This document shows, in pieces, positions 12,639 to 30,490 of a DNA stretch of 34,809 nucleotides. This DNA comes from Candidatus Avichristensenella intestinipullorum (GTDB lineage Bacteria; Bacillota; Clostridia; Christensenellales; Aristaeellaceae). The number at the start of each line of letters is the position of its first letter. Positions within the stretch are counted from its first letter, which is position 1. The notes below the pieces were generated by a model. That model was not told the DNA's origin. It ran no database searches and was given only the letters and a program-made list of their open reading frames with translations. Made by a program: the position numbers and the translations under genes. Where the stretch lies: contig DVFI01000124.1 of assembly GCA_018713305.1 (NCBI GenBank), forward strand, positions 1-34,809, given 5' to 3'.

Positions 12639-12664
12639 ACGCGTCCATCCTGGTGCGGCGGCGC

Positions 12665-13624: not shown

Positions 13625-13657
13625 ACCGTCGCTTCTCCTTCCGGAATTCCGTGAAGA

Positions 13658-13731: not shown

Positions 13732-13740
13732 AGCGCAGGA

Positions 13741-15477: not shown

Positions 15478-15539
15478 AGTTACTGCTCCTCCTTTTTCGT
15501 TGGGGTATGTGTGCCAAGCCATGACTGGCCCGAACATCC

Positions 15540-16469
15540 TTATTCTTTGACGGCGCCAATCAGGACGCCCTTGGCGAAATGGCGCTGCAGGAAGGGGTAC
15601 ACGCACATGATGGGCACCATGGCGCAGATGATGGTAGCCATGCGCAGCGCCATGGGCGGGGGCAGCTGCGCCCCGATATCCACCGCGCCAGTGCGCATCT
15701 GCGACATCATGGCCGAGTCGGTCAGCACGCGGCGCAGCACCCAGGCAAACGGCTGGAGGTTGGGCTTGGTGGCGATGTACATCATGTAGCTGTAATAATC
15801 GTTCCAGAATCCCACCGCAATGAACAGGCCCACCGCCGCCAGCATCGGCTTGGACAGGGGCAGGATGACCTGGAAGAATACGCGCACGTCGTTGCAGCCG
15901 TCGATGCGGGCGGCATCCTCCAGCTCTTTGGAGACGGAGTAGGAAAAGTAGTTGCGCATGATAATAAAGTACGTAATGCTCAGCCCATAGGGAAGCACCA
16001 TGACCCAGTAGGTGCGCAGCAGGCCCATGTTGACATAGAGGATGTAGGTGGGAATCAGGCCGCCGGCGAAGAACATGGTAAACACCGTCAGCACGTTGAG
16101 CAGCTTCATGCCAGGCACGTGCTCCTTGCTGACCGCATACGCCATCGTGGAGGTCACCAGCACGCTCAGGAAGGTGCCGATTACCGTCTTGGAAGCCGAA
16201 ATCCACAGGCTGTTGACAAAGGAGGAGTTTTCAAAAATCATCTTGTAGTACTGAAAATCCACGCCGCCGTTCGGCCACAGCAGCGCGCCGCCCTTGACAA
16301 ACTCCTCGTAAGGCGTCACGGAGGCGATCAGCACGTACCACATCGGGTAGAAGCAGATCAGCGCAAAGAGGACGCAAAAAGCGATGACGAACACATCGTA
16401 GAAGTTGAAGCCAAGCACCTGCACCATGGTCTTCCTGGGATGTTTCGGATACGATACCGTCTTGTCCAC
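15540..16469 (-). CDS. CUT1 ABC transporter permease (LplC/YtcP type), operon 1
   Basis: A 309-residue inner-membrane permease with about six transmembrane segments. The EAA loop that docks the ATPase is visible as EDAARIDGCNDVRVFFQVILP in the middle (E-x-A-x-x-D-G form). The N-terminal segment FYDVFVIAFCVLFALICFYP and the C-terminus ICAMVPIMCVYPFLQRHF are typical of this branch. The chosen start is GTG at 16469, preceded at 9 nt by a strong GAGGAGGG site that overlaps the upstream permease stop; an ATG at 16502 would begin inside that gene. It pairs with the LplB-type permease (16483-17469). No ATPase gene is present, so a shared MsmX-like ATPase elsewhere is expected. Confidence 0.9.
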   Translation of the reverse strand: MDKTVSYPKHPRKTMVQVLGFNFYDVFVIAFCVLFALICFYPMWYVLIASVTPYEEFVKGGALLWPNGGVDFQYYKMIFENSSFVNSLWISASKTVIGTFLSVLVTSTMAYAVSKEHVPGMKLLNVLTVFTMFFAGGLIPTYILYVNMGLLRTYWVMVLPYGLSITYFIIMRNYFSYSVSKELEDAARIDGCNDVRVFFQVILPLSKPMLAAVGLFIAVGFWNDYYSYMMYIATKPNLQPFAWVLRRVLTDSAMMSQMRTGAVDIGAQLPPPMALRMATIICAMVPIMCVYPFLQRHFAKGVLIGAVKE

Positions 16470-16482
16470 GCTCTTTCCCTCC

Positions 16483-17469
16483 TCAGAAGATGCCCATGAC
16501 ATCCATTTTTTTGACGAAACGGTTGGTAAAGGCCAGCGCGATGAGACCCATGACGTTCAACAGCAGGTTCGCCGCCGTGGAAATCTCAAACTCGCCGCCG
16601 CCGCCCAGGCTGATGCGGTAAATGTAGGTGGACAGCACGTCGCCGGTGGAGAGCACGAAGTTGTTGTAAAGGTTGTACACCTGGTCAAAGTTGGACAGGA
16701 ACAGCTGCGAGATGTTGAGCAGGAACATCACCGCCACGCTGGGCATAATCCTGGGCAGGGTAATGTGGAACATCATGTCCCGCCGGTTTGCGCCGTCCAT
16801 CGCGGCCGCTTCGTACAGCGACAAATCCACGCTCGCCACGGCGGCCAGGTAGATAATCGTCGAGTAGCCCGCGGTTTTGATGATGTTGGTGACGACCAGG
16901 ATGCCGCGGAACAGGTCCGGTCGTTTCATAAAGTCAATGGGTTCGCCGCCCAGGGACATGATCACCTGGTTGACCACGCCGCCCACGTCGCCCGGCACCG
17001 GCGCCTGCAGGAAGACCTGCACCAGGCCCGCGAAGATGACCCAGGACAGGAAGTACGGCAGGTATACGCAGGTTTGCACCACGCTCTTGAGCGGCTTGCA
17101 CTGCACCTCGTTAATCATCAGCGCCAGAAACACGTTGAAGGTGAAGCCGAAAATCAGGTTATAAATGTTGATGATAACCGTATTTTTGAACGCCTGGATG
17201 AACGCGGGGTCGGAAAACAGCTCCCGGTAATGCGCCAGGCCCACCCACGGGCTGCCCATGATGCCCTTGTTCATCTTAAAGTCCTTGAAGGCCAGCACCA
17301 CGCCGTACATCGGCGCGTAGCTGAAGACGAGCAGGAACACAAGACCGGGGATAGCCAGCAGATAAATGAACCAGTACTTCCGGACGGACGTGCGGAACCT
17401 GGCAGCCAGCGACGGCTGCGGTCCCCCGACGGCCCCCTTGGCTTTGACGACTCCCGCATACTCGGGCAT
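16483..17469 (-). CDS. CUT1 ABC transporter permease (LplB/YteP type), operon 1
   Basis: A 328-residue permease, first gene of operon 1. The N-terminal signature KYWFIYLLAIPGLVFLLVFSYAPMYG and FKDFKMNKGIMGSPWVGL identify the LplB group. The EAA loop is EAAAMDGANRRDMMFHITLP, and the C-terminus holds STGDVLSTYIYRISL. Six transmembrane segments are expected. The ATG at 17469 has GGAGGG 6 nt upstream; a GTG at 17484 would overlap that site. The leader from the predicted transcript start is about 125 nt and carries two AT-rich operator-like sites. It is clearly paralogous to the operon 2 permease at 25627-26601. Confidence 0.92.
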   Translation of the reverse strand: MPEYAGVVKAKGAVGGPQPSLAARFRTSVRKYWFIYLLAIPGLVFLLVFSYAPMYGVVLAFKDFKMNKGIMGSPWVGLAHYRELFSDPAFIQAFKNTVIINIYNLIFGFTFNVFLALMINEVQCKPLKSVVQTCVYLPYFLSWVIFAGLVQVFLQAPVPGDVGGVVNQVIMSLGGEPIDFMKRPDLFRGILVVTNIIKTAGYSTIIYLAAVASVDLSLYEAAAMDGANRRDMMFHITLPRIMPSVAVMFLLNISQLFLSNFDQVYNLYNNFVLSTGDVLSTYIYRISLGGGGEFEISTAANLLLNVMGLIALAFTNRFVKKMDVMGIF

Positions 17470-17488
17470 GGCGCATCCCTCCACCTTA

Positions 17489-17503
17489 TTATTACTAATA
17501 TAA
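17489..17503 (-). promoter_or_regulatory. Operator-like site 3 of operon 1, close to the first start codon
   Basis: The plus strand reads TTATTACTAATATAA, containing CTAATAT (17495-17501). It lies 20 nt before the start codon at 17469 and 101 nt downstream of the -10 box. The matching place in operon 2 (102 nt from its -10 box) holds the palindrome TTATTAGCTAATAA. Confidence 0.6.
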
Positions 17504-17553
17504 CTTGGCTCGTTCTATGCCCTACACGCCAGTTGCTTGTCTTATTTCTGTGA

Positions 17554-17561
17554 TTATTAGC
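17554..17561 (-). promoter_or_regulatory. Operator-like site 2 of operon 1
   Basis: TTATTAGC on the plus strand (GCTAATAA on the transcribed orientation). The gap to the -10 box is 41 nt, identical to the gap in operon 2 at 26689-26696, while most bases between are not conserved. This suggests a protein-binding half site. Confidence 0.6.
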
Positions 17562-17602
17562 AAGTTATTTCAAAACGCTTCCGAAATTCCTATCGCGCTT
17601 AT

Positions 17603-17631
17603 ACTATACCAGCAAACCCTTTAGCTGTCAA
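17603..17631 (-). promoter_or_regulatory. Sigma-A promoter of operon 1
   Basis: On the minus strand TTGACA (17626-17631) is followed by a 17-nt spacer and TATAGT (17603-17608), close to consensus and the best promoter in the window along with its operon 2 twin. Shared flanks with the twin include TTTGTGC before the -35 box, TTTGCTGG before the -10 box, and ATAGGAAT shortly after it. Transcription should begin near 17596 and serve all eight genes of operon 1. Confidence 0.88.
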
Positions 17632-17688
17632 GCACAAATAAACAGCCAAATGATGTTTTCTTTTTTCTGTTTTTATACCCGAAATAAT

Positions 17689-17732
17689 GAGGCTCATTAC
17701 TAATATTGACAATAATATTAGTAATGAGCCTC
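17689..17732. promoter_or_regulatory. Perfect 19-bp-arm inverted repeat, upstream operator of operon 1 and end of operon 2
   Basis: GAGGCTCATTACTAATATT (17689-17707) is repeated exactly in inverted orientation at 17714-17732 around a 6-nt spacer. Its core carries CTAATAT (17700-17706) and ATATTAG (17715-17721), centred 79.5 nt above the operon 1 -35 box; a similar pair is centred 79 nt above the operon 2 promoter. It also lies 35 nt past the last stop of operon 2 and would form a long RNA hairpin. It may therefore serve both as a regulator site and as a transcript end. Confidence 0.7.
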
Positions 17733-17739
17733 GCCGGCA

Positions 17740-17764
17740 GGCGGCGCCTTCCGGAGGCGCCGCC
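17740..17764 (-). terminator. Terminator-like hairpin at the end of operon 2
   Basis: GGCGGCGCCT (17740-17749) pairs perfectly with AGGCGCCGCC (17755-17764) around a 5-nt loop, 2 nt after the stop of the large Asp-box gene. No T run follows; the long AT-rich inverted repeat comes next. Together they probably form the end of the operon 2 transcript. Confidence 0.55.
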
Positions 17765-17766
17765 GC

Positions 17767-19584
17767 TCAGACATACCAGTCGGCCGCCGTCATGGGCTTC
17801 ACATCGCGCAGCGGGCACGGCGCATGCACGCTTTCTATCCAGCGCAGCGCGCCCCGCGCGTCCCTTCGGAGCGCCCCCGCGCGCAGCAGGCGCTCCTCTC
17901 CCTCTGGCGACAAAATGCCGGGCGCCAGCGCGCCGTCCCCGCCGGCAACCGCCCGCAGGGCTTCGCAGGCGCCGGGAAACGCGCGCAGGAAGTCCGGAGA
18001 AAGATAGAGCGTGCCGCCGGAAAAATAGGCGTCGTACGGGAAGGGGGTGCGCCGCCGGGGCGTAAGCGCCAGCACCGTCATTTCCGGCCCTTCGCAGGGC
18101 TGCACGCCGTGCGCGCCGGGATATGCCACGTCGGCATGATAGGCCAGATGGATATCGGCCACGCCGTCAAAGCAGGCCGCGTCCGCACAGGCGTAGCCCT
18201 CCGCGTCCGTCCGCGCCCGCACCTGGCACTCGGCGGCCGACTGCGGCAGGGTGTTTACGGTTCCGTCAGCGTTCCAGTATGTGCGGAAGCGGAACGTCAC
18301 CTCCTGGCCGGCAAACGGCGCGCCGTCGCGCAGCAGGCGCGCGCGAAAGCGATTCCGGTACTGCGCGCCGTCGGGCGAAAGCATCCGCTCCATCGTCAGG
18401 GAGGCGACCGCGGGCAGGCGGCATGCAGGGCGCAGCGCCTGCACGTCGATGCGCATATCCACCTCGCCAAAGGCGTTATCCCCGCCCACATGGCCGTACA
18501 GCGCCAGACGCCCGTCCGGCAGCTTCAGCAGGTATGGCTGGTACAGATGGGAATAGCCCGCCGGGGGTTCCAGCAGGCGCCAGTTTTCGCCATGGTCGTT
18601 GGAGACGGCATACCCTTTATTGCGGCGATAGCCGACCAACGCGGCCAGACGGTCGTCCCAGACAAGGGTTTCCGGCACATAGCCGCCCTGCGGATTCTCC
18701 CGCGGGTCCGCGGGCGCGCCCGCGCGCACCGTCAGCATCGCGCCGTGAATCCATCCGTCGGGCGAAGGGGTCACGAACTGCCGGCCCGTCGGGGTGCCCT
18801 GCACGTCGCCCGCGACAAACAGCAGCCTGCCGTCCGGCAGTTCCGCAAAATCAAACTCATGCGCGCCAATCCCCGGAAGGATGTAATGCGGTTCGCTGAA
18901 GGCGCAGCCGTCGCGCGTCGTCAGAAAAAACGGCTGAATTTTGCGGATATAGCTTTCGTCCGGCAGCATGGTGTTGCGCGTGGGGCGCGCCTCGCCTGGA
19001 CCCCAGGGCGTGCCGTAGAGGCTGGCCAGCACGACGATTTCGCCATTGCGCAGGCGGCGCACGCGCCACAGATAGGGCGCGCAGCCGTCCAGCAGGCGGC
19101 GAAGGTCCCGCCATGTCCGCCCGCCGTCCGTGCTTTCGCGCACGCGGATGCAATGCGCCCAGCCCGCGCCGCTTTCATTGCCGCGCGGCACGTCAAAGCC
19201 CAGGATGCGCCCGTCCGGAAAGCCCGCGCAGCACAGCGAGCCTTCTCTGCGCGGGCAGCGGCCCGTCACCGCAAAATGAACGCCGTCCCGGGAGCGCATG
19301 TACACGCGCCAGGAGCGCTTCCCGGGGTCGCCGCACTCCACCGAGCAATAGGACACCGGCACGCCCGCCGCCTCCGCAAGCTCCAGCCGCGGCGGCGTAT
19401 ATTCCGGGTTTTCCTCCTCGACGACCTCGTCAAAGGACAGCCCGACGGTGCCGTCTCCATAGGAAAAGGCCGTCGCCCATGCGGCAAAGCCGGGGCGCTG
19501 CTGCGGCCGGTACACGGTATGTTGGGCAAATTCGCCCCGCCAGGCAATGCGGTCGGATACGGCATCGGAAAAGCTTTCGGGCAT
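17767..19584 (-). CDS. Large sialidase-like Asp-box (BNR repeat) protein, cytoplasmic
   Basis: A 605-residue protein whose first ~400 residues look like a sialidase-type beta-propeller. Asp-box-like segments include RSRDGVHF, ESTDGGRTWRD and VSNDHGENWRL, each after a blade strand; PDGRLLFVAGD and PDGRLALYGHV are typical blade turns. Residues after about 400 form a further region (RFRARLLRDGAPFAGQEVTF..., then VTFRFRTYWNADGTVN) that resembles an Ig-like or beta-sandwich module. There is no signal peptide. It is the last gene of operon 2, preceded by AAGGAGAG and 21 nt from the aldo/keto reductase. It is only distantly like the operon 1 Asp-box protein. Its substrate is unknown, and true sialidase activity is not proven by these motifs. 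Confidence 0.75.
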   Translation of the reverse strand: MPESFSDAVSDRIAWRGEFAQHTVYRPQQRPGFAAWATAFSYGDGTVGLSFDEVVEEENPEYTPPRLELAEAAGVPVSYCSVECGDPGKRSWRVYMRSRDGVHFAVTGRCPRREGSLCCAGFPDGRILGFDVPRGNESGAGWAHCIRVRESTDGGRTWRDLRRLLDGCAPYLWRVRRLRNGEIVVLASLYGTPWGPGEARPTRNTMLPDESYIRKIQPFFLTTRDGCAFSEPHYILPGIGAHEFDFAELPDGRLLFVAGDVQGTPTGRQFVTPSPDGWIHGAMLTVRAGAPADPRENPQGGYVPETLVWDDRLAALVGYRRNKGYAVSNDHGENWRLLEPPAGYSHLYQPYLLKLPDGRLALYGHVGGDNAFGEVDMRIDVQALRPACRLPAVASLTMERMLSPDGAQYRNRFRARLLRDGAPFAGQEVTFRFRTYWNADGTVNTLPQSAAECQVRARTDAEGYACADAACFDGVADIHLAYHADVAYPGAHGVQPCEGPEMTVLALTPRRRTPFPYDAYFSGGTLYLSPDFLRAFPGACEALRAVAGGDGALAPGILSPEGEERLLRAGALRRDARGALRWIESVHAPCPLRDVKPMTAADWYV

Positions 19585-19605
19585 GCCTGCTCTCCTTTCC
19601 GCGCG

Positions 19606-20520
19606 TCAAAGCGCGCCCACGGCCTCGTCCAGCTGGTCCGGGCGCTTGACGCCCACCAGCGCGCTGACCACGGCCTGCTGCCGCAGCGCCCAGCGCAGGG
19701 CGTACTGCGCCATGGAAATGCCTTCGCGCCCCGCCGCTTCCTCGCAGCGGGCCAACAGCGCATGGGTTTCGTCGGTCACGGGCTTCATCCAGTCCGGCTT
19801 TTCGGCCATGCGGCTCCCTTCGGGCGCGTCCTGGCCCCGGCGGTATTTGCCCGTCAGCAGCCCGCCCTGCAGCACCTGATAGGGCACGACGCCGACATGC
19901 TCCCGCTCGCAGCAGGACAGCAGTCCGTCCGTCATCGCCGCGGTGTTGAGCAGGCTCAGCGCGGGCTGGCACATCGCGGGCGGAGCGACGCCCTCGTCGC
20001 GCGCTGCCTGCGCCAGCGCCTCCAGCTGCCCGGCGGTATAGTTGCTCACGCCCCAGGCGCGGACGGTGCCCGCCGCCAGCTCCCGCCCGATGGCGCGCAC
20101 GATATCATGGGGCGGCGTATGCGGGTCGTAGCGGTGCAGATAGTACAAATCCACATAATCCGTCGCCAGGCGCCGGAGGCTGCGGCGGAGCTGAACGCGT
20201 ATGGCGTCGGGGCTGGTGTTCTCGTCCTCGGGCAGCGGGCCGACCTTCATGCCGACCTTGGTCGCCAGCACAAATTCGCCCCGGCGGCCCTGCATGGCGC
20301 GCCCCAGGATTTCCTCCGCGACGCCGCCCGCGCTGCCCGCCACGCGCCGGTAGCCCTCGTACATGTTGGCCGTGTCCACGAAATTGATCCCATGCTCGTC
20401 CAGGGCGTAGCGCGTCAGGCGCACGGCGTCCTCCTGCGCGACCGGGCTGCCGAAGGTCATGGTGCCCAGGCAGAGCCTGCTGATGCGGATATCCGTTCCG
20501 GGAATGTGCATATACTGCAT
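19606..20520 (-). CDS. Aldo/keto reductase
   Basis: A 304-residue NAD(P)H-dependent aldo/keto reductase with the (beta/alpha)8 fold. The catalytic tetrad is complete: D49 (NFVDTA), Y54 (ANMYEG), K88 (LATKVG) and H129 (YYLHRYD). The opening IPGTDIRISRLCLGTMTFG and the later VSNYTAGQLEAL and GVSN-type substrate strand place it with the YghZ/YajO-like oxidoreductases. It should reduce or oxidise a sugar carbonyl in the cytoplasm. An AGAGGAGA site precedes the ATG at 20520, 21 nt after the lyase gene. Its place between a NanA-like lyase and an Asp-box protein suggests processing of the released keto or aldehyde fragment. Confidence 0.93.
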   Translation of the reverse strand: MQYMHIPGTDIRISRLCLGTMTFGSPVAQEDAVRLTRYALDEHGINFVDTANMYEGYRRVAGSAGGVAEEILGRAMQGRRGEFVLATKVGMKVGPLPEDENTSPDAIRVQLRRSLRRLATDYVDLYYLHRYDPHTPPHDIVRAIGRELAAGTVRAWGVSNYTAGQLEALAQAARDEGVAPPAMCQPALSLLNTAAMTDGLLSCCEREHVGVVPYQVLQGGLLTGKYRRGQDAPEGSRMAEKPDWMKPVTDETHALLARCEEAAGREGISMAQYALRWALRQQAVVSALVGVKRPDQLDEAVGAL

Positions 20521-20541
20521 GGCGTCATTCTCCTCTTTGTT

Positions 20542-21438
20542 CTATGGCCGCGCCGCTTCCTCCAGCCGGCGGAGCCTGCGCAGCAAATCGTCCAGCGCAT
20601 CGGAAGGCACCTTGCCCGGATGCCACGCGCTGGGCCGCCTGAAGCAGCGCCCGGCAAATCCTCTGGCGCGCATGAGCTCTTCGAAGGCATCCAGAACTCC
20701 CCAGCGCCAGCACTGCGCCAGAAAGGCGGTAAAATCGTTCGCCACGTCGCGCACGGCGTCCGCCTGCCCCGCGCGCACGCTGGCGAACACCTTTTCGTAC
20801 AGGCCGGGCAGCAGGTTCGCCCAGGTGCCGATGCAGCCGTCCGCGCCGTAGAGCAGGCCGGGCAGCAGCAGCTCGTCAAAGCCGGAATATACCACCTTTT
20901 CGGGACAGGCCAGCTTCACGCAGCGCAGCAGAAACAGGTTCCAGTCGCTCATCTTGATGCCGACAACGCCGGGAATGTCCAGCAGCGCGCGCAGGTTATC
21001 CAGATTCGCCGTCATGCCGGTCACGCCGGGAATATAGTAGACGATGACCTTTGCGCCCGTGGCGGCCAGCGCGCGGTAGTAGGCGGCCACCTCCGGCCAG
21101 TCCTTGCGGGGCGGAATGCTGGCGACGGCGTCCGCGCCCAGGTCCGCGGCCTGCTGCGCCAGCGCAACGGCCAGGCGCTGGCTGGTCTGGCCCACATGCA
21201 CAACGGCCAGCCGGCCGGCCGCCTTCAGCCGGGGCACGAGCAGCGCGGCGATATCCAGGCGCTCCTGCTGGGTCAGGTTGGCGGCATCGCCCGTACCGCC
21301 GTTGAGATAAAGCCCGGAAATGCCCGTGCGCATCAGGCGGTCCATATTGCGCTCCAGCGCGTCCCGGTCCAGTCCGTCGTCCTCCCGGCAGGGATTGACA
21401 AGGGGCGCCACCACGCCCTCAAATTGCGTCCTTTCCAT
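20542..21438 (-). CDS. DapA/NanA-family aldolase (N-acetylneuraminate lyase-like)
   Basis: A 298-residue class I aldolase or lyase of the dihydrodipicolinate synthase family. The Schiff-base lysine is K162 in VGIKMSD, the catalytic tyrosine is Y134 or Y135 in VIVYYIPGVTGMT, and the carboxylate-binding loop is LYLNGGTGD (residues 43-51). The YIPGVTG and NGGTGD forms are nearer to N-acetylneuraminate lyase and 2-keto-3-deoxy sugar acid aldolases than to DapA. It should cleave a 2-keto sugar acid to pyruvate and an aldehyde. The start is uncertain: ATG 21438 (12 nt from GGAGG) is preferred to ATG 21450, which abuts the GGAGG. A terminator-like hairpin lies immediately upstream. Confidence 0.88.
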   Translation of the reverse strand: MERTQFEGVVAPLVNPCREDDGLDRDALERNMDRLMRTGISGLYLNGGTGDAANLTQQERLDIAALLVPRLKAAGRLAVVHVGQTSQRLAVALAQQAADLGADAVASIPPRKDWPEVAAYYRALAATGAKVIVYYIPGVTGMTANLDNLRALLDIPGVVGIKMSDWNLFLLRCVKLACPEKVVYSGFDELLLPGLLYGADGCIGTWANLLPGLYEKVFASVRAGQADAVRDVANDFTAFLAQCWRWGVLDAFEELMRARGFAGRCFRRPSAWHPGKVPSDALDDLLRRLRRLEEAARP

Positions 21439-21461
21439 CAACGGCCGCATCCTCCTTTCCG

Positions 21462-21526
21462 AAAAAGGGGCCGAAAAGCCCGGCGCGCCGCTCCGCAGGG
21501 AGCACGGGTCGCCGCCCTTTCGGCCC
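21462..21526 (-). terminator. Terminator-like hairpin between the DegT and lyase genes
   Basis: On the minus strand GGGCCGAAA (21518-21526) pairs with TTTCGGCCC (21468-21476), enclosing a smaller GC-rich hairpin, and a T5 run follows at 21462-21466. The structure ends just before the lyase ribosome binding site. It could reduce transcription into the last three genes of operon 2 or serve as an attenuator. Confidence 0.55.
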
Positions 21527-21540
21527 GAAACCGCCTGTCT

Positions 21541-22773
21541 TCAGCCGCGCAGCTCCTTGACCGCGGCTATCAGCCCTTCGCACATGATGCGCATGCTTTC
21601 CTCGTCGATGCCGCACCACCACGGGAAGGAGAAGCTGTTGTCCCACCAGGCGTCCAGCACGGGGCAGTCGTATGCGCCAAACCCCTTCTTCTGGAAGAGC
21701 GGGTAGCGGTACAGCGGGTAATACTGCACGATGGCGCGCACGCCATATTTGCTTGTCAGCACGTCCAGCAAATCATTGCGCGTCTTGCCATAGGCGCTGC
21801 CGTCGTAGTGCATGATATACTGATGCACCACATAGCGTCCTCCTTCGACAATGGACGGGAAGGAGATTTCCGGCACGTCCTTGAGCCACTCGCGGATGCG
21901 CCGGTCCTGGCTGATGAGGATTTCGTTGTTGGCAATGACGCTTTTGAGCTGCTCGGAGCCCAGCGCGCACTGCGCCTCGCCCAGGCAGAAGTTCTGCGGC
22001 CAGCGATCCTCCAGGAATTCGTCCACGTTGCTCATCGCCGGCACCCAGTAGCGCTCGCGCTCGCCCTGGAAGGCGCACAGGCCGTTATGGCGGATGCCGG
22101 GCACGTTATGGGCAATCTGGTCGTCGTTGCAGACGAACATGCCGCCCTCGCCCAGCGTCGTCATGGTCTTGGCCGCATGGAAGCTGAAGCAGCCAAAGTC
22201 GCCGAACGTGCCGACATGCTGCCCGTCGATGCGGCAGTCCAGGGCCTGCGCGCAGTCCTCCACGACCTTCACGCCGTGGCGGCGGGCAATGTCCATGATG
22301 CGCTTCATATCGCAGGGAATGCCCAGCAGATGCACGGGCACGACGGCCTTTGTCCTGGGCGTAATTTTGCGCTCAAAGTCGTCGGGGTCCAGGGTCCAGG
22401 TGTCCGGATGAATGTCCGCCCAGACGATTTTCGCGCCCAAATCGCCGAAGGGAATGGCGGTCGCGCAGTAGGTGTAGGCGGGGATAATCACCTCGTCGCC
22501 GGGGTGAATATGGCAGAAAATGGCCGCGAGCTTCAGCGCGTTGGTGCAGTTGTTGACGCCGAAGGCGTACTTGGCGCCCACGAAGGCGGCGAAGTCCTTT
22601 TCAAACTGTTCCAGGTGCTTTCCCTGGGTCTGGCCCTCGGCGTGGCGCATCACGTCCACCACCGCCTGAATCTCCGCCTCCGTATAGGGGTGCTGCATCT
22701 GCGGGAAGATGACGCGATAGCCCTCTACCCTGCCGCGCCCGGAGGGATCGGACAATTTTGCTGTCTGTGGCAT
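21541..22773 (-). CDS. DegT/DnrJ/EryC1/StrS-family PLP aminotransferase
   Basis: A 410-residue sugar aminotransferase of the DegT/StrS group. The PLP lysine is K202 in SFHAAKTMTTLGEGG, the cofactor-binding aspartate is D173 in VVEDCAQALDC, and the AFGVNNCTNAL motif (70-80) binds the PLP phosphate. These enzymes exchange an amino group between a keto sugar and glutamate. Most act in biosynthesis of amino sugars, but here the gene lies in an import and catabolism operon, next to a NanA-like lyase, so a degradative direction is plausible. A GGAGG site precedes the ATG at 22773; a 144-nt gap with a strong hairpin separates it from the binding-protein gene. Confidence 0.92.
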   Translation of the reverse strand: MPQTAKLSDPSGRGRVEGYRVIFPQMQHPYTEAEIQAVVDVMRHAEGQTQGKHLEQFEKDFAAFVGAKYAFGVNNCTNALKLAAIFCHIHPGDEVIIPAYTYCATAIPFGDLGAKIVWADIHPDTWTLDPDDFERKITPRTKAVVPVHLLGIPCDMKRIMDIARRHGVKVVEDCAQALDCRIDGQHVGTFGDFGCFSFHAAKTMTTLGEGGMFVCNDDQIAHNVPGIRHNGLCAFQGERERYWVPAMSNVDEFLEDRWPQNFCLGEAQCALGSEQLKSVIANNEILISQDRRIREWLKDVPEISFPSIVEGGRYVVHQYIMHYDGSAYGKTRNDLLDVLTSKYGVRAIVQYYPLYRYPLFQKKGFGAYDCPVLDAWWDNSFSFPWWCGIDEESMRIMCEGLIAAVKELRG

Positions 22774-22861
22774 AGCGGGTTCCTCCTACTGGTATCAAAG
22801 ATGGGAATCGTCAACGGCCGGTCGTGTGCCCCGCCCGCCGTCCTGCCGGCAGCGGGACATG

Positions 22862-22893
22862 CGCCGCGCGCCCTGCGGGCAGAGCGCGCGGCG
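22862..22893 (-). terminator. Intra-operon hairpin after the operon 2 binding-protein gene
   Basis: CGCCGCGCGC (22862-22871) pairs perfectly with GCGCGCGGCG (22884-22893) around a 12-nt loop. There is no T run. Its place right after the binding-protein gene mirrors the hairpin after the operon 1 binding-protein gene and fits mRNA stabilisation or partial termination. Confidence 0.5.
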
Positions 22894-22917
22894 GGAAAGG
22901 AACGGAAGGAATGCGTG

Positions 22918-24603
22918 TCAGACGCCCGTGCGCGCGGCGGCGATGGCCTCGTTGAGCATCGTCTCCAGCTCGGCGGCGCCGGCCGCCTCGTACTCGGCGA
23001 CATAGTCCGGCCACGCGGCCTCCACGTCAAGCTGGCCGCCAATCATCTGCGTGAGGTACTGGTTGGAGATATCCTGCAGCTTCGTGCGGATATCCGCGGC
23101 CTCGGCGGGCAGGCTGATCATATTGTAGTAGGCCGGCAGGTATTCCATCACCTCGTCCACATAGCCCGCGATAACGCCCCTGGCATAATCAACCAGCGCG
23201 GCATCCTGCTCCGTGGCCCAGCTGTTGCTGTGGTCGATGGGATGCGATACGGCAGTCCACCAGTCGTTGTTGGTGAAATCCACCTGGTACTCGGTGCCGC
23301 TGAACAGGTAGCTGAACCACACATACTTGCACCGGCCGTCGCCGTAGCCGTAGGGCTTGGTGCAGGCATTCCAGAATTCCGCGTCCTGGTCCTCGCGGTA
23401 GACATAGTTCGTGGTGTTATGCAGCAGGTCCTGGCCCTCCTGGCTGGCGAGGAATTCCACCAAATCCAGCACGCGGTCCGGATACTCGCAGCTGGTGGGG
23501 ATGAAGTAATGGGCGCCAATCCAGGTGCCGGTGGTGTAGTGCTTGCCGTACTGGCCGTCGGAGGTCGGCGGCACGCCCAGGGTCAGGTCGCTCATCTGCG
23601 CGTCCTCGTTGACGGAGGCCCAGGCGGTCTTGTAGAAATCGCGGAACTGGCCGGGATAGCCGAAGCCGAAGTCCACCGCGCCCAGCTTGCCGTCGCCGAA
23701 GTCGGCGTACGCATCGTCAAAGTCGCCCTTGATGCCGATGCCGCTGTCCAGGCCGCCGGCCGCGTACATCTCGGCCAGCTGCTTGACGACGGCCTTCGAC
23801 TCCTCGCTCACCGTGGCCAGCGTCCAGTATTCGGACTCGGTGCCAATCTCGCCGCTGGGAACAAAGCCAATCCACGCGTCGCCCTTGGGCGGGCAGATGC
23901 GGGTTCCCTGCGGAGCGGCCAGGGTCTGGTCAATCTGCGACCAGTTGGTCAGCTTGTCGTTGCGCGGCCACCAGCCGACGTAGCCGTTGGCGCCGGCGGC
24001 CTTGGTGAAGGCGATGAACTCCTCGACCGTCTGGGGCACCTTGCCCTCGTTGACGGCGTCGAGAATCGCCTGGTTGTACACGGGAACGCCGCTGAAGCTC
24101 GGGTCGGCAAAGGCGGCCACGGCATAGATGGCGTACGCCTTGTTTTCATCGCCGGTGTAGAGCTTGTTGTAGGCCTTGTACTCCGCGCTGTTGAATATCT
24201 TGTGCAGCGTGGGCCAGCGTTCGGGTTCGGCGTTGATGATGGCCGCCAGGTCATAGACCAGCTCCTCCTCCGACCAGGAAGCAATCTTCTCGCTCTCGCC
24301 CCAGGTGGGGAACAGGTCGGCCGCGCCTACGGTAAGCAGCTCGGTCTGCATGCGCTCGTCAAAGCCCTCCGTGCCGGTGTCATACTCCAGGGTAATGTTC
24401 ACCGCTTCTTCGATGGCCGCTTTGATGGGGTCGTTCTGCATGCCGACTTCATCGTCCACGCTGTTGCCGAACTGCGCGAAGCGGATGTTGACCTGCTCGC
24501 GCCCCGCGTTGGCGGAGGCGGCCTCGCCCAGCGCCATGGCCGGCAGCATCATGGACACGGCCAGCACGATGGCCAATACGAGCGTAAACCGGGTTTTCTT
24601 CAT
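22918..24603 (-). CDS. ABC transporter substrate-binding protein (LplA/YtcQ type), operon 2
   Basis: A 561-residue solute-binding protein paralogous to the one at 13741-15477: both start the mature region with QVNIRFAQ/LVNIRFSQ-type sequence, NSVDD, VNITLEYDTG, DLFPTWGE, GDENKAYAIY and HYFIPTSC.YP. The signal peptide covers residues 1-27 (MKKTRFTLVLAIVLAVSMMLP, AMA before LG), with no lipobox cysteine. It should capture a sugar related to, but not the same as, the operon 1 ligand. The start is the ATG at 24603, after an AAGGAGGA site; an upstream ATG at 24624 precedes that site and is rejected. Confidence 0.92.
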   Translation of the reverse strand: MKKTRFTLVLAIVLAVSMMLPAMALGEAASANAGREQVNIRFAQFGNSVDDEVGMQNDPIKAAIEEAVNITLEYDTGTEGFDERMQTELLTVGAADLFPTWGESEKIASWSEEELVYDLAAIINAEPERWPTLHKIFNSAEYKAYNKLYTGDENKAYAIYAVAAFADPSFSGVPVYNQAILDAVNEGKVPQTVEEFIAFTKAAGANGYVGWWPRNDKLTNWSQIDQTLAAPQGTRICPPKGDAWIGFVPSGEIGTESEYWTLATVSEESKAVVKQLAEMYAAGGLDSGIGIKGDFDDAYADFGDGKLGAVDFGFGYPGQFRDFYKTAWASVNEDAQMSDLTLGVPPTSDGQYGKHYTTGTWIGAHYFIPTSCEYPDRVLDLVEFLASQEGQDLLHNTTNYVYREDQDAEFWNACTKPYGYGDGRCKYVWFSYLFSGTEYQVDFTNNDWWTAVSHPIDHSNSWATEQDAALVDYARGVIAGYVDEVMEYLPAYYNMISLPAEAADIRTKLQDISNQYLTQMIGGQLDVEAAWPDYVAEYEAAGAAELETMLNEAIAAARTGV

Positions 24604-24667
24604 AAAACTTCCTCCTTGTTGCATTGTTTTTATGGCTCCCGAAGGGCGTCGCGTCCCCGGGCAGACA

Positions 24668-25609
24668 TCATTCCTTAATGGCCCCCAGCGTAATGCCGCT
24701 GGTGAAATACTTTTGCAGGAAGGGATACACGCACATGATGGGCACCATGGCGCAGATGATGGTGGCCATGCGCAGCGCCATAGGCGGCGGGAGCTGCATG
24801 CCCAGGCCGACCGCTCCGTTGCGCACCTGGTTCATCATCGTCTGGTCGACCAGCATGCGGCGCAGGACCCAGGCGAAGGGCTGCAGGTTGGTCTTGTTGG
24901 AGATGAACATCATGTAGTTATAGTAATCGTTCCAGTTGATGACCGCGATGAACAGCGCGATGGCGGCCAGCATGCTGCGGCTGACGGGAATGACCACGCG
25001 GAAGAATACGCCGATTTCGGTACACCCGTCCAGCAGCGCGGCCTCCTCCAGCGATTTGGGCACGGAGTAGGAATAGTAATTGCGCATGATGATAAAGTAG
25101 GTGATGTTCAGCGCGCCGGGAATGACCATGACCCAGTAGGTGCGCAGCAGATGCAGGTCCTTATAGAGCATGTACTGGGGAATCAGGCCGCCGGTGAAAA
25201 AGAGGTTGAAGACGACCAGCGCGTTGATGAGCTTCATGCCCCGGATGTACGTTTTGCTGACCCCATAGGCCATGCTGGCGGTGACCAGCACGCTGAGCGT
25301 CGTGGCCAGCACCGTCTTGCTGACGGAAATCCACATGCTGTTGACGAAGCTGCGCGTGCTGAAGATGGCCTTGTAATACTGCAAGTCAATGCCGCCGGTC
25401 GGCCAGAGCATCAACCCCCCCTTGACAAATTCCTCATAGGGCGTTACGGAGGCAACCAGCACGTACCACATCGGCCATACGCACAGCAGCGCAAAGAGCA
25501 CGCAGAAAAGCACCACGAACACGTCGTAGAAATTAAAGCCCAGCGCCTGCCGCATGCCGCGCCGGTGTTTCACCGGCTGCTTGTTCGTCGTGGTAGAGAG
25601 TCCTTGCAT
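24668..25609 (-). CDS. CUT1 ABC transporter permease (LplC/YtcP type), operon 2
   Basis: A 313-residue inner-membrane permease with about six hydrophobic segments. The EAA loop reads EEAALLDGCTEIGVFFRVVIP. Both ends resemble the operon 1 permease at 15540-16469: GFNFYDVFV near the start and MALRMATIICAMVPIMCVYP near the end. It works with the permease at 25627-26601 and the binding protein at 22918-24603. The ATG at 25609 has an AAAGGAGG site 10 nt upstream. No ATPase gene is nearby. Confidence 0.92.
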   Translation of the reverse strand: MQGLSTTTNKQPVKHRRGMRQALGFNFYDVFVVLFCVLFALLCVWPMWYVLVASVTPYEEFVKGGLMLWPTGGIDLQYYKAIFSTRSFVNSMWISVSKTVLATTLSVLVTASMAYGVSKTYIRGMKLINALVVFNLFFTGGLIPQYMLYKDLHLLRTYWVMVIPGALNITYFIIMRNYYSYSVPKSLEEAALLDGCTEIGVFFRVVIPVSRSMLAAIALFIAVINWNDYYNYMMFISNKTNLQPFAWVLRRMLVDQTMMNQVRNGAVGLGMQLPPPMALRMATIICAMVPIMCVYPFLQKYFTSGITLGAIKE

Positions 25610-25626
25610 ATGGGAATGCCTCCTTT

Positions 25627-26601
25627 CTAGAAGATGCCCTGCACGTCCAGCTTTTCCACAAACCGGTTGGCGATGATGACCACAATCAGGCCCATGGTGT
25701 TGAGCACGAGGTTCATCGCCGTGGAGAGCTCGAAGTCGGTGCCCGCCCCGCCCAGGCTGATGCGGTAAATGTAGGTGGACAGCACGTCGCCGGTGGAGAG
25801 CACGTAGTTGTTATAGAGGTTGTATACCTGGTCAAAGTTGGAAATGAAGAGGCTGGCCAGCTGCAGAATCAGCATAATCATGACGCTGGGCAGGATACGG
25901 GGCAGGGTGATGTGCAGGAGCATATCCTTGCGGTTCGCCCCGTCGATGGCCGCGCTTTCGTACAGCGCCGGGTCGATGCCGGAAATGGCGGCCAGGTAGA
26001 CGATGGTGTGATAGCCGGCGGTTTTGATGACGTTGGTAACCACCAGGATGCCGCGGAACAGGTCCGGCCGCTTGAGAAAGTCAATCGGCTCGCCGCCCAT
26101 TTTCACAATGACCTGGTTGACCACGCCGCCCACGTCCGCCGAGGAGGGGAATTCCAGGAATACCTGCACCAGGCCCGCGAAAATGACCCACGAGAGGAAG
26201 TAGGGCAGATACACGAATGTCTGCACCACCGGCTTGAGGCGGCGCAGGCGGATTTCGTTTATCATCAGCGCCAGAAACACGGTAAAGGTGAAGCCGAACG
26301 CGAGGTTATAGACGTTGATGATGACCGTGTTGCGAAATGCCCGGAGAAAGTTCGGGTCGCGCAGCATTTCCTCAAAATGTTCCAGGCCCGCCCACGGACT
26401 GCCCCATACGCCCAGGCGCGGCGAATAGTCCTTAAAGGCCAGCTGAATGCCGTACATGGGGCCGTAGTTGAACGTGAGCATAAACAGCAGGCCCGGCAGC
26501 ACCAGCAAATACACAAACCAGTACTTGCGCATGTAGGCGGTAAAGCGTTTCCAGGTCCCCTGCATGCCCGGCGGATGCAACATACCCGCTTTTTGCGTCA
26601 T
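25627..26601 (-). CDS. CUT1 ABC transporter permease (LplB/YteP type), operon 2
   Basis: A 324-residue permease, first gene of operon 2. The N-terminal KYWFVYLLVLPGLLFMLTFN and YGPMYGIQLAFKDYSPRLGV place it in the LplB group. The EAA-type loop is ESAAIDGANRKDMLLHITLP; the C-terminal NYVLSTGDVLSTYIYRISLG is almost the same as in the operon 1 partner. The ATG at 26601 has a CAGGGGGA site upstream. A palindromic operator-like site lies 21 nt before the start, and the promoter about 140 nt before it. Confidence 0.92.
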   Translation of the reverse strand: MTQKAGMLHPPGMQGTWKRFTAYMRKYWFVYLLVLPGLLFMLTFNYGPMYGIQLAFKDYSPRLGVWGSPWAGLEHFEEMLRDPNFLRAFRNTVIINVYNLAFGFTFTVFLALMINEIRLRRLKPVVQTFVYLPYFLSWVIFAGLVQVFLEFPSSADVGGVVNQVIVKMGGEPIDFLKRPDLFRGILVVTNVIKTAGYHTIVYLAAISGIDPALYESAAIDGANRKDMLLHITLPRILPSVMIMLILQLASLFISNFDQVYNLYNNYVLSTGDVLSTYIYRISLGGAGTDFELSTAMNLVLNTMGLIVVIIANRFVEKLDVQGIF

Positions 26602-26621
26602 AACTCATCCCCCTGACAAAT

Positions 26622-26635
26622 TTATTAGCTAATAA
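26622..26635 (-). promoter_or_regulatory. Operator-like palindrome, site 3 of operon 2
   Basis: TTATTAGCTAATAA is a perfect 14-bp palindrome, 21 nt before the first start codon of operon 2 and 102 nt below the -10 box. It is the clearest full-site version of the CTAATAA half site found at six places in the two control regions. Such a site in the leader suits a repressor or a looping partner. Confidence 0.7.
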
Positions 26636-26688
26636 TGCGAGCGCCCTTTCCAGTTTTTTGATGACATTCGGCCGGAACCTCTTGACTT

Positions 26689-26696
26689 TTATTAGC
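26689..26696 (-). promoter_or_regulatory. Operator-like site 2 of operon 2
   Basis: TTATTAGC on the plus strand, at a 41-nt gap from the -10 box, the same distance and orientation as in operon 1 (17554-17561). The bases between differ, so the half site is the conserved element. Confidence 0.6.
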
Positions 26697-26737
26697 CGCT
26701 TATGGCAAAATGATTCTGCGATTCCTATTGTGCCTAT

Positions 26738-26766
26738 ACTATACCAGCAAATCTCAGGGGTGTCAA
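26738..26766 (-). promoter_or_regulatory. Sigma-A promoter of operon 2
   Basis: On the minus strand TTGACA (26761-26766), a 17-nt spacer and TATAGT (26738-26743). TTTGTGC upstream, TTTGCTGG before the -10 box and ATAGGAAT after it are shared with the operon 1 promoter. Transcription should begin near 26731 and cover seven genes. Confidence 0.88.
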
Positions 26767-26833
26767 GCACAAATGGTGAATTCAGCAGCGGTATTTTGTC
26801 TGGTTTGTCTCAATCGCCGCGCACGTTTCATTA

Positions 26834-26856
26834 CTAATATTATTTCTGCATATTAG
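26834..26856. promoter_or_regulatory. Upstream operator-like inverted repeat between operons 2 and 3
   Basis: CTAATAT (26834-26840) and ATATTAG (26850-26856) form an inverted repeat with a 9-nt spacer, centred 79 nt above the operon 2 -35 box, as the matching pair is in operon 1. It is also 76 nt before the first start codon of the divergent operon 3, for which no confident promoter was found in the 167 nt to the left of that start, so the site may control both directions. Confidence 0.65.
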
Positions 26857-26932
26857 CACGGATTCCTGCCGGCGACACGGAAATTCCCGGACGGCGGCCA
26901 GCCGGACACGGGCGCAAAGGGGTGGATGTTCC

Positions 26933-28075
26933 ATGAAACGCATCGGATTTCTGGGCTACGGCCTGCGGTCCGAAACCATGATGAAGGCCTTCCGTTCGCT
27001 GGAAGCGGATATCTGCGTGGCCGCGGTGGCGGACCCGCGCCATGAAGCCATTGCGCCTTCCCTGCGGGACGACGCATATTTCGCCGCCACGCGCTGGTAT
27101 GCGGATGCGGAAACGCTGCTGGCGCGCGAGGAGCTGGACGGCGTCTGCATCGGCACGCGCTGTCCCCTGCACACGCCCCTCGCCTGCCGGGTGCTTGCGC
27201 TGGGCATTCCGCTCTTTCTGGAAAAGCCCGTATGCATCAACCGCGAACAGTACGAGCAGCTGCGCGCCGCCGCCCAGGGGCGCGAGGACCGGGTGGTGGT
27301 CAGCTTCCCGCTGCGCCTTTCCACCATCACGCAGGAGATGAAGCGCATTGTGCAAAGCGGCCGGCTGGGCCGCCTGACCATGGTGCAGGCCATCAACAAC
27401 GTGCCCTACGGCAGCGTCTATTACCACAGCTGGTATCGCGACCCGGAGCAGACGGGCGGCCTGTTCCTGCAGAAGGCCACCCACGATATGGACTATATCC
27501 ACTTCCTGACCGAAGAGCTGCCCGTCTCCGTCAGCGCCAAGACGGCCAAGCTCTACTACCGGGGCGACCGGCCCGCCGGGCTGCATTGCCCCGACTGCGA
27601 GGAATACTACACCTGCCGCGAAAGCAGCTATGTGGTGCGCCACCTATTAAAGGAAGACGTCCAGGGCGACGCGTGCTGCTTTGCCCAGGACACGGGCAAC
27701 GAGGACGGCGCCGCCATGCTCCTGACCACGCAAAGCGGCATGATCATCACCTACAGCCAGAACTTTACCGTCAAGAAGGGCGCGGGACGCCGCGGCGCGC
27801 GGCTGATTGGCACCGAGGGCAGCGCGGAGTTCGACTTTTACAGCGCGCAGATTCGGGAGGACCATTATCTCACGCCTCAGACGGTCACGCGCAGCTTCCA
27901 GTTCCCGGCGGGCAACCACTTCGGCGGCGACGAGGCGCTGGCCCTGGAGTTTCTGCGCGTCATGGACGGGCAGGCGTCCCGTTCGGACCTGACCGCCGGC
28001 CTTGCCAGCGCGGCCGTCTGTCTCGCCGCCAAGCAGGCGGATGCCCAGGGGCGCTTTGTCGCCGTCGACTATTGA
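26933..28075 (+). CDS. Gfo/Idh/MocA-family oxidoreductase with a cysteine cluster
   Basis: A 380-residue NAD(P)-dependent sugar dehydrogenase-like protein. The Rossmann start is IGFLGYGLRSE (residues 4-14), the cofactor-domain motif is EKPV (E97, K98, P99), and the C-terminal domain has GGLFLQKATHDMDYIHFL with the usual K and H-D pair. An unusual set of cysteines occurs at C219, C222 (CPDC), C228 and C248-C249; related sequences sometimes carry such a loop, perhaps for a metal or a disulfide. It could oxidise or epimerise a sugar with an oxidised intermediate. It is the first gene of operon 3, transcribed away from operon 2, with a purine-rich AAAGGGGTGG site ahead of the ATG at 26933. Confidence 0.9.
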   Translation: MKRIGFLGYGLRSETMMKAFRSLEADICVAAVADPRHEAIAPSLRDDAYFAATRWYADAETLLAREELDGVCIGTRCPLHTPLACRVLALGIPLFLEKPVCINREQYEQLRAAAQGREDRVVVSFPLRLSTITQEMKRIVQSGRLGRLTMVQAINNVPYGSVYYHSWYRDPEQTGGLFLQKATHDMDYIHFLTEELPVSVSAKTAKLYYRGDRPAGLHCPDCEEYYTCRESSYVVRHLLKEDVQGDACCFAQDTGNEDGAAMLLTTQSGMIITYSQNFTVKKGAGRRGARLIGTEGSAEFDFYSAQIREDHYLTPQTVTRSFQFPAGNHFGGDEALALEFLRVMDGQASRSDLTAGLASAAVCLAAKQADAQGRFVAVDY

Positions 28076-28090
28076 GAAGGAGAATACGCC

Positions 28091-28930
28091 ATGCTGGTGA
28101 ATCTGACCGATATCCTCGCCAACACCCGTCGGGACGGCTATGCCGTGGGCCTTTTCAACTGCACCACCCTGGAAATGACGCGCGGCATCATCGCCGCGGC
28201 GGAGGCGCTGCGCTCGCCGGTGATCATCGGCCCGGCGGAAAGCCTCCTGCCCGGCGCGACGCTTGCCGAATATGCCGACATGATGCTGGGCATCGCGCGG
28301 CGCGCGAGCGTGCCGGTCGCGCTGCACTTCGACCATGGCTTCACCCCCGCCCTGGTGGAAGAAGCCATCGACCTCGGCTTCACCTCCGTCATGTACGACG
28401 GCAGCATGCTGCCCTTTGACGAAAACGCGCGCCGGGTCCGCGCCCTGGCGGAAAAAGCGCACGCCGCCGGCTGCTCGCTGGAGGCGGAAATCGGCCATGT
28501 GGGCTCGAACGGCTCGGCGGAGGCGGAAAGCGAAGCCTCGATGTATACCGAGCCCGCCGAGGCGCTCGCCTTCGCGCGGGAAAGCGGGTGCGACGCGCTG
28601 GCCGTCGCCATCGGCACCGCGCACGGCGTGTATGCGAAAACGCCGAAGCTGGATTTGGAGCGCCTGCGCGCCATTGCGGCGGTATGCCCCTGCCCGCTCG
28701 TCCTGCACGGCGGCAGCGGCCTTTCTCCGGAGGCCTTCCGCGCCTGCATCGACGGCGGCATCTCCAAGGTCAACATCTTTACGCACAACAACCTGGCCGC
28801 CGCGCGCGCCGCGCACGCCCACTTTTCCGAAAACACCGGCGCGTTTGAATTGATGCCCCACATCGTCGAGGCCGTCCGGCAGGAAACCATGCGCCACATC
28901 CGCATCTTCCGCAGCGACGGGAGGGCCTGA
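28091..28930 (+). CDS. Class II ketose-bisphosphate aldolase
   Basis: A 279-residue zinc-dependent aldolase of the fructose/tagatose-bisphosphate family. The metal and catalytic residues are in place: D81 and H82 in LHFDHG, E-x-E-x-GHVG with H136, H178 in GTAHGVY, and H206 in LHGGSG, followed by KVNIFTHN for phosphate binding. It should split a phosphorylated ketose to dihydroxyacetone phosphate and an aldehyde. With the kinase and isomerase that follow it completes an isomerase-kinase-aldolase route. An AAGGAGA site lies before the ATG at 28091, 15 nt after the oxidoreductase stop. The true substrate may differ from fructose or tagatose bisphosphate. Confidence 0.93.
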   Translation: MLVNLTDILANTRRDGYAVGLFNCTTLEMTRGIIAAAEALRSPVIIGPAESLLPGATLAEYADMMLGIARRASVPVALHFDHGFTPALVEEAIDLGFTSVMYDGSMLPFDENARRVRALAEKAHAAGCSLEAEIGHVGSNGSAEAESEASMYTEPAEALAFARESGCDALAVAIGTAHGVYAKTPKLDLERLRAIAAVCPCPLVLHGGSGLSPEAFRACIDGGISKVNIFTHNNLAAARAAHAHFSENTGAFELMPHIVEAVRQETMRHIRIFRSDGRA

Positions 28931-28932
28931 GC

Positions 28933-30474
28933 ATGCCGGCCGTACTTTCCCGCGGCGCGCCCTGCCTGGCGGCGCTGGATGTGGGGACCACGTCGGTCAA
29001 GGCGTGCCTGTTCTCGCCTTCGCTGCGCCTGCTGGCCTGCCATGTCGAGGAATACGCCCTGGACGCCCGGGGCGAGCGCGTGGAGGCGGGCGCGGAGCGC
29101 TACCTGGAAGCCGCCCGCCGGGGCCTCGGCGCCGTTTTGAAAGCCGCGCCGGGTTTCCGCCCGGCCGCGCTGGGCCTGACGACGCAGGGAGAAACCCTGG
29201 TGCCCGTGGACGCCGCCGGCCGGCCGCTCCGCCCCTGCCTGGTCTGGCTGGACGGGCGCGCGCAGGCGCAGGCGGAGACGCTTGCGCGCGAGCTGGACGG
29301 GCAGCGGTTTTACGAGACGACCGGCCTGCCGCAGATGGACGGCGCGCTGCCGCTGGCCAAGGCGCTGTGGCTGGCGCAGAACGAGCCGGACGTTCTGGCC
29401 CGCGCGCACAAGCTGCTCCTGCTGGAGGATTATTTCCTCTGGAAGCTCACCGGCCGCTTTGCCACCGAACCTTCGCTGCAGACCTCCACCGGCTGGTACG
29501 ATATCCGCCGCGACGGCTACTGGCCGCAGGCGCTGGCGCTCGCGGGCCTGCGCGCCGACCAGCTCCCCGAGCTTCTGGCGTGCGGCCAGCGCGCGGGCGG
29601 GCTGACGGCCGAAGCCGCGCGCTTCCTGGGCCTTCCGCAGGGGCTTCCGGTCGTCGCCGGCGCCATGGACCAGACGGCGGCCGCGCTGGCGGCCGGCTCC
29701 GACCGTCCCGGCGCGGTCACGGAAACCACGGGCACGGCGCTGGTCATGACCGCCTGCACCGACGCGCCGGTCTTTCCGCGCCAGAGGCGCGTCACCGTGT
29801 ACCGGCACGCGCTGCCCGGGCAGTATCTCTATCTGCCCATCGGCAAAACCGCCGGCATGGCGCTGCGCTGGTTTCGGGACGCGTTCTGCCCGGATTTGCC
29901 GGCGGGAAGCGACGGCTTCGCCGCGCTGGACCAGGAGGTCGCCGCGCTTCCCCTGGGCAGCGAGGGCGTCGCGTTCCTGCCCTTTCTGGCCGGCGCGCCG
30001 GACCAGGACGCATGCCCCGGAGCGCGGGGGGTCTTTTATGGCGCGCGCCTGTCCACCACGCGGGCGCATTTTGCCCGCAGCGTAATGGAATCGACGGCCT
30101 GCATGATACGCGATTTTCTGGAAGACCTGCGCGGGCTGGGCTGCCCCGTGCAGGACATTCGCGCGCTGGGCGGCGGGGCGCGCAGCCCCGTCTGGCTCCA
30201 GATAAAGGCCGATATCTGCGGCCGCGTCTTTCGCGTGCCGGCGTGCACGGAAGCCGCCGCGCAGGGCGCGGCGCTGTTGGCCGGCTGGGGAAGTGGCCTG
30301 ATTCCGCGCGGCGAAAAGCCGGCGGACGGCGAAGAGACGGCGTTCCTGCCGGATCCCTCGCGCGCCGCGGACGGCGAGCGGGCTTACGCGCTGTACCGCA
30401 GGCTCTACGATACCCTGCGGCCGCTGTTTGACCGGGCGCCGGAGAGCGCGCCCGGGCCGGACATCCCGGAATGA
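28933..30474 (+). CDS. FGGY-family carbohydrate kinase
   Basis: A 513-residue sugar kinase of the FGGY family (xylulokinase, gluconate and ribulose kinases). The N-terminal phosphate loop is LDVGTTSVKACLF (residues 16-28); the sugar-contacting region is GLTTQGETLVPVD and CLVWLDGRAQ; the catalytic base is D246 in AGAMDQTAAAL; the C-terminal adenosine-binding segment is ALGGGARSPVWLQIKAD. It should phosphorylate the ketose made by the neighbouring isomerase. The ATG starts 2 nt after the aldolase stop, with a GGGAGG site in that gene's end, showing tight coupling. The sugar specificity cannot be read from sequence. Confidence 0.93.
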   Translation: MPAVLSRGAPCLAALDVGTTSVKACLFSPSLRLLACHVEEYALDARGERVEAGAERYLEAARRGLGAVLKAAPGFRPAALGLTTQGETLVPVDAAGRPLRPCLVWLDGRAQAQAETLARELDGQRFYETTGLPQMDGALPLAKALWLAQNEPDVLARAHKLLLLEDYFLWKLTGRFATEPSLQTSTGWYDIRRDGYWPQALALAGLRADQLPELLACGQRAGGLTAEAARFLGLPQGLPVVAGAMDQTAAALAAGSDRPGAVTETTGTALVMTACTDAPVFPRQRRVTVYRHALPGQYLYLPIGKTAGMALRWFRDAFCPDLPAGSDGFAALDQEVAALPLGSEGVAFLPFLAGAPDQDACPGARGVFYGARLSTTRAHFARSVMESTACMIRDFLEDLRGLGCPVQDIRALGGGARSPVWLQIKADICGRVFRVPACTEAAAQGAALLAGWGSGLIPRGEKPADGEETAFLPDPSRAADGERAYALYRRLYDTLRPLFDRAPESAPGPDIPE

Positions 30475-30490
30475 TTAAGGAGGCATTGCG

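Follow-up and report, generated by a model that had tools for sequence, protein, structure and literature searches.

Short AT-rich sites around two transporter promoters in a gut Clostridia gene cluster are probably operators of a linked LacI-family repressor

Introduction

Two operons of Candidatus Avichristensenella intestinipullorum, here op1 and op2, share a promoter and CTAATA-type sites at matched positions, which raises the question of what binds these sites and what their arrangement does. The first-pass annotation proposed that a single regulator, not encoded here, binds three operators at each promoter, perhaps with DNA looping, and suggested looking for the motif beside a regulator gene. 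The window, meaning the whole stretch of DNA analysed, is the entire contig C16 (34,809 bp, 64.5% GC) of a draft genome of 2.35 Mb in 151 contigs.

Gene content of the cluster

The operons of the window are as follows:

6840-17484, minus strand: op1 operon, extent inferred from spacing
17767-26601, minus strand: op2 operon, from gene reading and relatives
26933-34600, plus strand: divergent operon, from domain searches

op1 encodes two ABC permeases, an SBP, a PHP-like protein, an MFS-like transporter, a GQSNA-type esterase-like protein, a large protein of uncertain class and a BNR-like protein, the class names of the last five coming from reading the translations. op2 also encodes two ABC permeases and an SBP, together with a DegT aminotransferase, a DHDPS/NanA-like lyase, an aldo-keto reductase and a protein with a weak BNR match. 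In the divergent operon are a GFO/IDH/MocA dehydrogenase, a class II aldolase, an FGGY kinase, an AraA-like isomerase, an aminotransferase-like protein and a second GFO/IDH/MocA protein. The whole cluster holds two ABC importers, BNR-like and esterase-like proteins, a NanA/DapA-like lyase, two aminotransferase-like proteins, dehydrogenases, an AraA-like isomerase, FGGY and PfkB kinases and two aldolases. NCBIfam equivalog cut-offs are reached by none of ten proteins, with only the cbbA subfamily model passed, and the substrate can safely be called a sugar or sugar acid.

Shared promoters and operator positions

The TTGACA-N17-TATAGT promoter reported for both regions is confirmed, and the only exact genome matches to TTGACA-N17-TATAGTATA are the op1 and op2 promoters. 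The paired CTAATAT/ATATTAG sites, the TTATTAGC site 41 nt below the -10 box of both promoters and the start-proximal sites are likewise present with the spacing first described:

17489-17501, minus strand: op1 start-proximal operator ATATTAGTAATAA, 20 nt before the ATG at 17469
17554-17561, plus strand: op1 middle site TTATTAGC, a half-site, with a counterpart in L113 only among the relatives read
17600-17631, minus strand: op1 promoter TTGACA-N17-TATAGT(ATA), extended -10 GCTGGTATAGT, same promoter in relatives
17689-17732, unstranded: op1 upstream double operator, centres 17700 and 17721, within a perfect 19-bp inverted repeat
26622-26635, unstranded: op2 start-proximal operator TTATTAGCTAATAA, 20 nt before the ATG at 26601
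26689-26696, plus strand: op2 middle site TTATTAGC, inside the spacer of the predicted facing promoter
26735-26766, minus strand: op2 promoter TTGACA-N17-TATAGT(ATA), exact genome pattern match
26828-26857, unstranded: op2 upstream double operator, strong at 26828-26840 and weak at 26850-26857

When the genome is searched with CTAATAT-N5..14-ATATTAG, the N8/9 forms at 17700-17721 and 26834-26856 are found and nothing else. The upstream "inverted repeat" consists of two near-palindromic operator copies (ATTAGTAAT), about two helical turns apart. Between op1 and op2, identity is 81% in the promoter core, 40% above the -35 box and 45% below the core, sites included. The upstream pair of op2 also lies within the leader of the divergent operon, and that of op1 is kept with no divergent partner operon. 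A cre-like TTTCAAAACGCTTCCGAAA is seen just below the op1 promoter (17568-17586) and is not kept in op2; catabolite control is possible there.

On the minus strand at 17670-17770, the op2 stop codon is followed by two strong RNA hairpins next to each other (MFE -55.3 kcal/mol, z -9.8), with no U-tract, and one of them contains two operators. These hairpins give some weight to reading the op1 upstream repeat as RNA, that is, as a terminator or stabilising hairpin after op2 and not as a DNA operator. However, besides the missing U-tract, the upstream pair of op2 falls short of a perfect hairpin, and a hairpin is impossible where relatives have a single operator at this position, so that this reading is improbable. 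A dual DNA and RNA role of the op1 repeat is possible.

Rarity of the motif

RCTAATAW has only 16 matches in the genome, against 97 for the reversed control pattern, and 9 of the 16 are in the op1 and op2 promoter regions. Thus, a chance origin is excluded, and the motif is not common at unrelated places, as it might have been. With a position matrix trained only on regulator promoters of other genomes, the top 20 matches in the window all fall in the op1 and op2 intergenic regions; 20 window matches reach at least 10 bits, where 60 Markov shuffles give an expectation of 2.1 and a maximum of 7. Allowing at most one mismatch, the consensus of the relatives' regulator promoters (TTATTAGTAATAA) is found only at C16:17489 and C41:3096; the op1 start-proximal operator is the genome's best match to it, equalled only by C41:3096. 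At two mismatches, most genome matches are the remaining strong sites of the window. Other two-mismatch matches (C37, C86, C68) have no clear link to the cluster and were set aside.

The matched sites might instead be leftovers of the duplication that gave op1 and op2, or AT-rich intergenic coincidences. The promoter cores are indeed clearly paralogous at 81% identity, but the sites outlast the surrounding DNA, the motif is rare in the genome and relatives in other genera contradict this account by having the same layout. Its probability is negligible.

A linked LacI-family gene

Contig C41 holds two of the other seven RCTAATAW matches, 153 bp apart. They lie in the region from which a LacI-family gene and a pfkB-hpcH-2-hydroxyacid dehydrogenase operon diverge, one match in front of pfkB and the other overlapping the -10 region of lacI (TATAATATTAGTCATGA). 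The motif therefore flanks a regulator gene, which, as in a local regulon, is linked to its putative target operons.

C41:3283-4374, plus strand: LacI-family gene, HTH and Peripla_BP_3 domain
34679-34809, unstranded: window end, identical to C41:1-131, C41 carrying DH-HpcH-PfkB and the LacI gene

The genome has some 40 copies (93-100% identity) of a dispersed repeat about 130 bp long, one of which forms the window end; only the C41 copy is 100% identical to this end. The repeat probably broke the assembly at this point. In relatives, the C41-type genes (lacI-pfkB-hpcH-dh) are contiguous with the window's last genes. From the 131-bp identity of C16 and C41 and these contiguous blocks, the C41 LacI gene very probably sits about 3 kb beyond the right end of the window, in the same gene cluster. 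The regulator is thus outside the window, as first proposed, but as a linked neighbour of the LacI family.

The C41 protein has an N-terminal LacI-type HTH (PF00356, E 1.8e-14, residues 7-50), in a stretch two residues longer than that of the Pfam model, and a Peripla_BP_3 effector domain (PF13377, E 4.8e-27). Its PDB relatives are CcpA, RbsR, LacI and PurR, of which the first three are closest. The hinge signature YxPNxxARxL, a frequent though not invariable feature of the family, is absent after the HTH, where close orthologues read YxLPxRKK, and a predicted model, of low confidence and built without a control model, has no helix in this linker. With the hinge missing, the protein is an atypical member, its family membership resting on the two domains. 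No tetramerisation domain is identified in the regulator.

A GntR/FCD gene (C41:4467-5210) adjoins lacI in this genome and has no counterpart in the relatives' syntenic regions; as it does not travel with the cluster, it was rejected as the regulator. It is highly improbable that the motif is bound by this protein, whose adjacency to lacI is the point in its favour, or by a distant AraC or two-component regulator. In all the syntenic regions GntR is absent, LacI is present with the motif at its promoter, and the motif still accompanies LacI homologues of only 39-41% identity (L071, L126). The sites are very probably operators of one LacI-family repressor, that encoded at C41:3283-4374 in the same cluster, which upholds the earlier suggestion of real operators, one regulator and a shared regulon.

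Form of the operator

In a compilation of 42 distinct sites, all preselected for the core TATTA-G-TAATA, operator information spans about 15 nt (ATTATTAGTAATAAT), centred on a single G with no CG. Because of the preselection, only the flanks and the span are informative. The CTAATA sites are probably binding sites of this form for a sugar-sensing LacI-family repressor. In a census of 1303 LacI-family regulators, operators are palindromes of 16-22 nt, 96% of them even and mostly with a central CG (PMC4052901). The 42-site compilation does not follow this norm: judged by its sequence, the operator is short, odd and AT-rich, without a central CG, and so atypical for LacI.

The local sugar regulators of that census (PMC4052901) are alike in having an HTH with Peripla_BP_3, a gene within a catabolic cluster, likely autoregulation and palindromic operators near start codons; unlike them, the present regulator has an odd 13-15-mer operator with no CG and a linker without PNxxARxL. 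Recognition-helix residues, compared with the operator by eye, show no clean covarying split. A literature text search with the operator sequence gives no paper on a bacterial regulator with it among the best 20 of 81 matches, and on hinge-less LacI proteins and face-to-face promoters there is little beyond PMC4052901 and PMC4207663.

Conservation in relatives

A scan of GTDB genomes gives 43 loci with LacI homologues, and at least one motif match is present upstream in 20 of the 40 examined there. Close LacI orthologues have the motif near -190 and near -38, where it overlaps the -10 box. Nine LacI|PfkB regions have two sites 151-156 bp apart, and orthologues of C41 LacI in other genera have ATTATTAGTAATAAT sites at the same two places. 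L054, L058, L060 and L063 lack a clear motif in front of their own LacI-homologue gene. In more distant relatives (L059:5953-5975, L053 and L071), overlapping operators with 10-bp spacing precede the LacI genes.

In whole-genome searches of the relatives, the exact motif occurs mainly in two places, the regulator and a second promoter some 8-11 kb from it. These second promoters are orthologous to op1 or op2 and lie between a transporter operon and a GFO/IDH-aldolase-FGGY-AraA-like operon. Operators are on both sides of the matching ABC-transporter promoter, one directly ahead of the permease gene and the other, frequently as a pair, ahead of the divergent gene. Thus, the predicted operator-bracketed promoter layout is kept across several genera, and the sites are neither lost nor generally respaced, much of the spacing being retained. 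Anaeromassilibacillus sp. An200, a cultured relative, has the cluster as well. In L115 and L082, operator pairs are in perfect inverted repeats like that of op1 (GGCAACTAATATT..AATATTAGTTGCC and GCCGCTAATATT..AATATTAGCGGC).

Of the three operators per promoter first proposed, the outer positions are general. The middle CTAATA site recurs only in op1, op2 and the close relative L113 and, being confined to these, appears to be a lineage-specific addition. Between the outer operators, the centre-to-centre distance is about 182-213 bp (17.4-20.3 turns), not helically phased overall. With the end of the transporter -10 box as reference, eight regions have the upstream operator at -96 to -98, three at -86/-87, one (L082) at -105 and three (L116, L130, L131) at -58, and the downstream operator lies 94-125 away. 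From the upstream operator to the -35 box, mean identity is 30%, against 26% when shuffled, and at this near-shuffle level the upstream position itself looks constrained. Phasing to the transporter promoter is R 0.81 for the upstream operator and R 0.37 for the downstream one, computed without the -58 regions L130 and L131 and from relatives that are not independent. A TTTACTAAA-like element, possibly a weak extra operator, is seen between the upstream operator and the -35 box in L117, L118, L119, L121 and L124.

The fixed upstream positions one helical turn apart (-97 and -86), in DNA that has otherwise diverged, and the variable downstream position (94-125) would fit a LacI protein that activates from the upstream operator, by a class-I-like contact with RNA polymerase, and represses from the start-proximal one. 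However, three regions have the upstream operator out of phase at -58, the promoters with their good -35 and extended -10 boxes seemingly need no activator, and in op2-type regions this site simply stands as a roadblock in the path of the divergent transcript. Activation by the same protein is accordingly unlikely, and repression by C41 LacI is likely.

A predicted facing promoter for the divergent operon

26682-26711, plus strand: predicted facing promoter TTGACT-N18-CAAAAT for the divergent operon, from AGTCAA distribution

Regions with a divergent operon have, below the transporter promoter and on the opposite strand, TTGACT-N17/18-CACAAT (with CAAAAT, CAGAAT and CATAAT variants), the -10 type box usually being preceded by TGG. 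Of the 13 regions with a divergent operon, 12 (all but L082) contain AGTCAA, the complement of the facing -35 box, and it is missing from all three regions that lack such an operon (op1, L115, L120). We infer that the opposite-strand element is the promoter of the divergent operon, facing the transporter promoter. The op2 upstream operator would then also serve the divergent catabolic operon, which has its own facing promoter.

Predicted mode of regulation and comparison with known systems

The sequences show the operators, the linkage, the conservation and both promoter sequences; binding, repression, a ligand and looping are predicted as follows. LacI dimers would bind ATTATTAGTAATAAT, and each region would have an operator near the start codons of both flanking operons, so that the promoters are bracketed. 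In op2 and most relatives the bracket would hold two facing promoters, transporter versus divergent catabolic operon; op1 would be a second transporter operon with no divergent partner. In the uninduced state, repressor sitting at the two ends would stop both transcripts from being elongated, and bridging of these ends would enclose the promoters in a loop, looping between the outer operators, of the kind seen in lac or the pLS20 switch, being plausible. LacI would also block the lacI promoter and the leader regions of the operons around it. A sugar-derived ligand from the pathway would release the repressor and turn on uptake, catabolism and the repressor gene together.

In E. coli lac, several operators act together with a DNA loop. 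The present system is similar in its LacI-type repressor and its operators upstream and downstream of the promoter, but brackets two facing promoters of divergent operons with an operator of unrelated sequence. The E. coli bio operator, bound by BirA, lies between facing promoters of divergent operons; two such promoters and one repressor are common to both systems, whereas here the operators are outside both promoters. In the Pc/Pr switch of pLS20 in Bacillus subtilis, the Xre-family RcoLS20 controls conjugation; the divergent promoters overlap, and of the two operators one is located over 85 bp downstream of a promoter, with a reported 75-bp loop (PMC4207663). Divergent promoters that overlap and two operators, one well downstream of a promoter, are again shared; the differences are a LacI-family protein, catabolic genes, about 182-213 bp between operators and a putative loop.

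A regulator and an operator can in this way be putatively assigned to a catabolic cluster common to several gut Clostridia genera known mostly from metagenomes. The operator is a clear exception to the usual even-palindrome, central-CG rule of LacI proteins and goes with the absence of the hinge motif, so that the link between hinge and CG becomes testable. It is an even bet that these regulators form a clade that has lost the hinge helix, uses a short, odd, AT-rich operator without CG, and holds uptake and catabolism off from both ends of a facing-promoter pair, the promoters competing once induced. op1, op2 and the relatives with and without a divergent operon are natural variants for the study of facing promoters and looping. 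In L118 (6300-6975) the regulatory region is duplicated, each copy keeping one of the two facing promoters, and this duplication is a natural split of the bidirectional unit.
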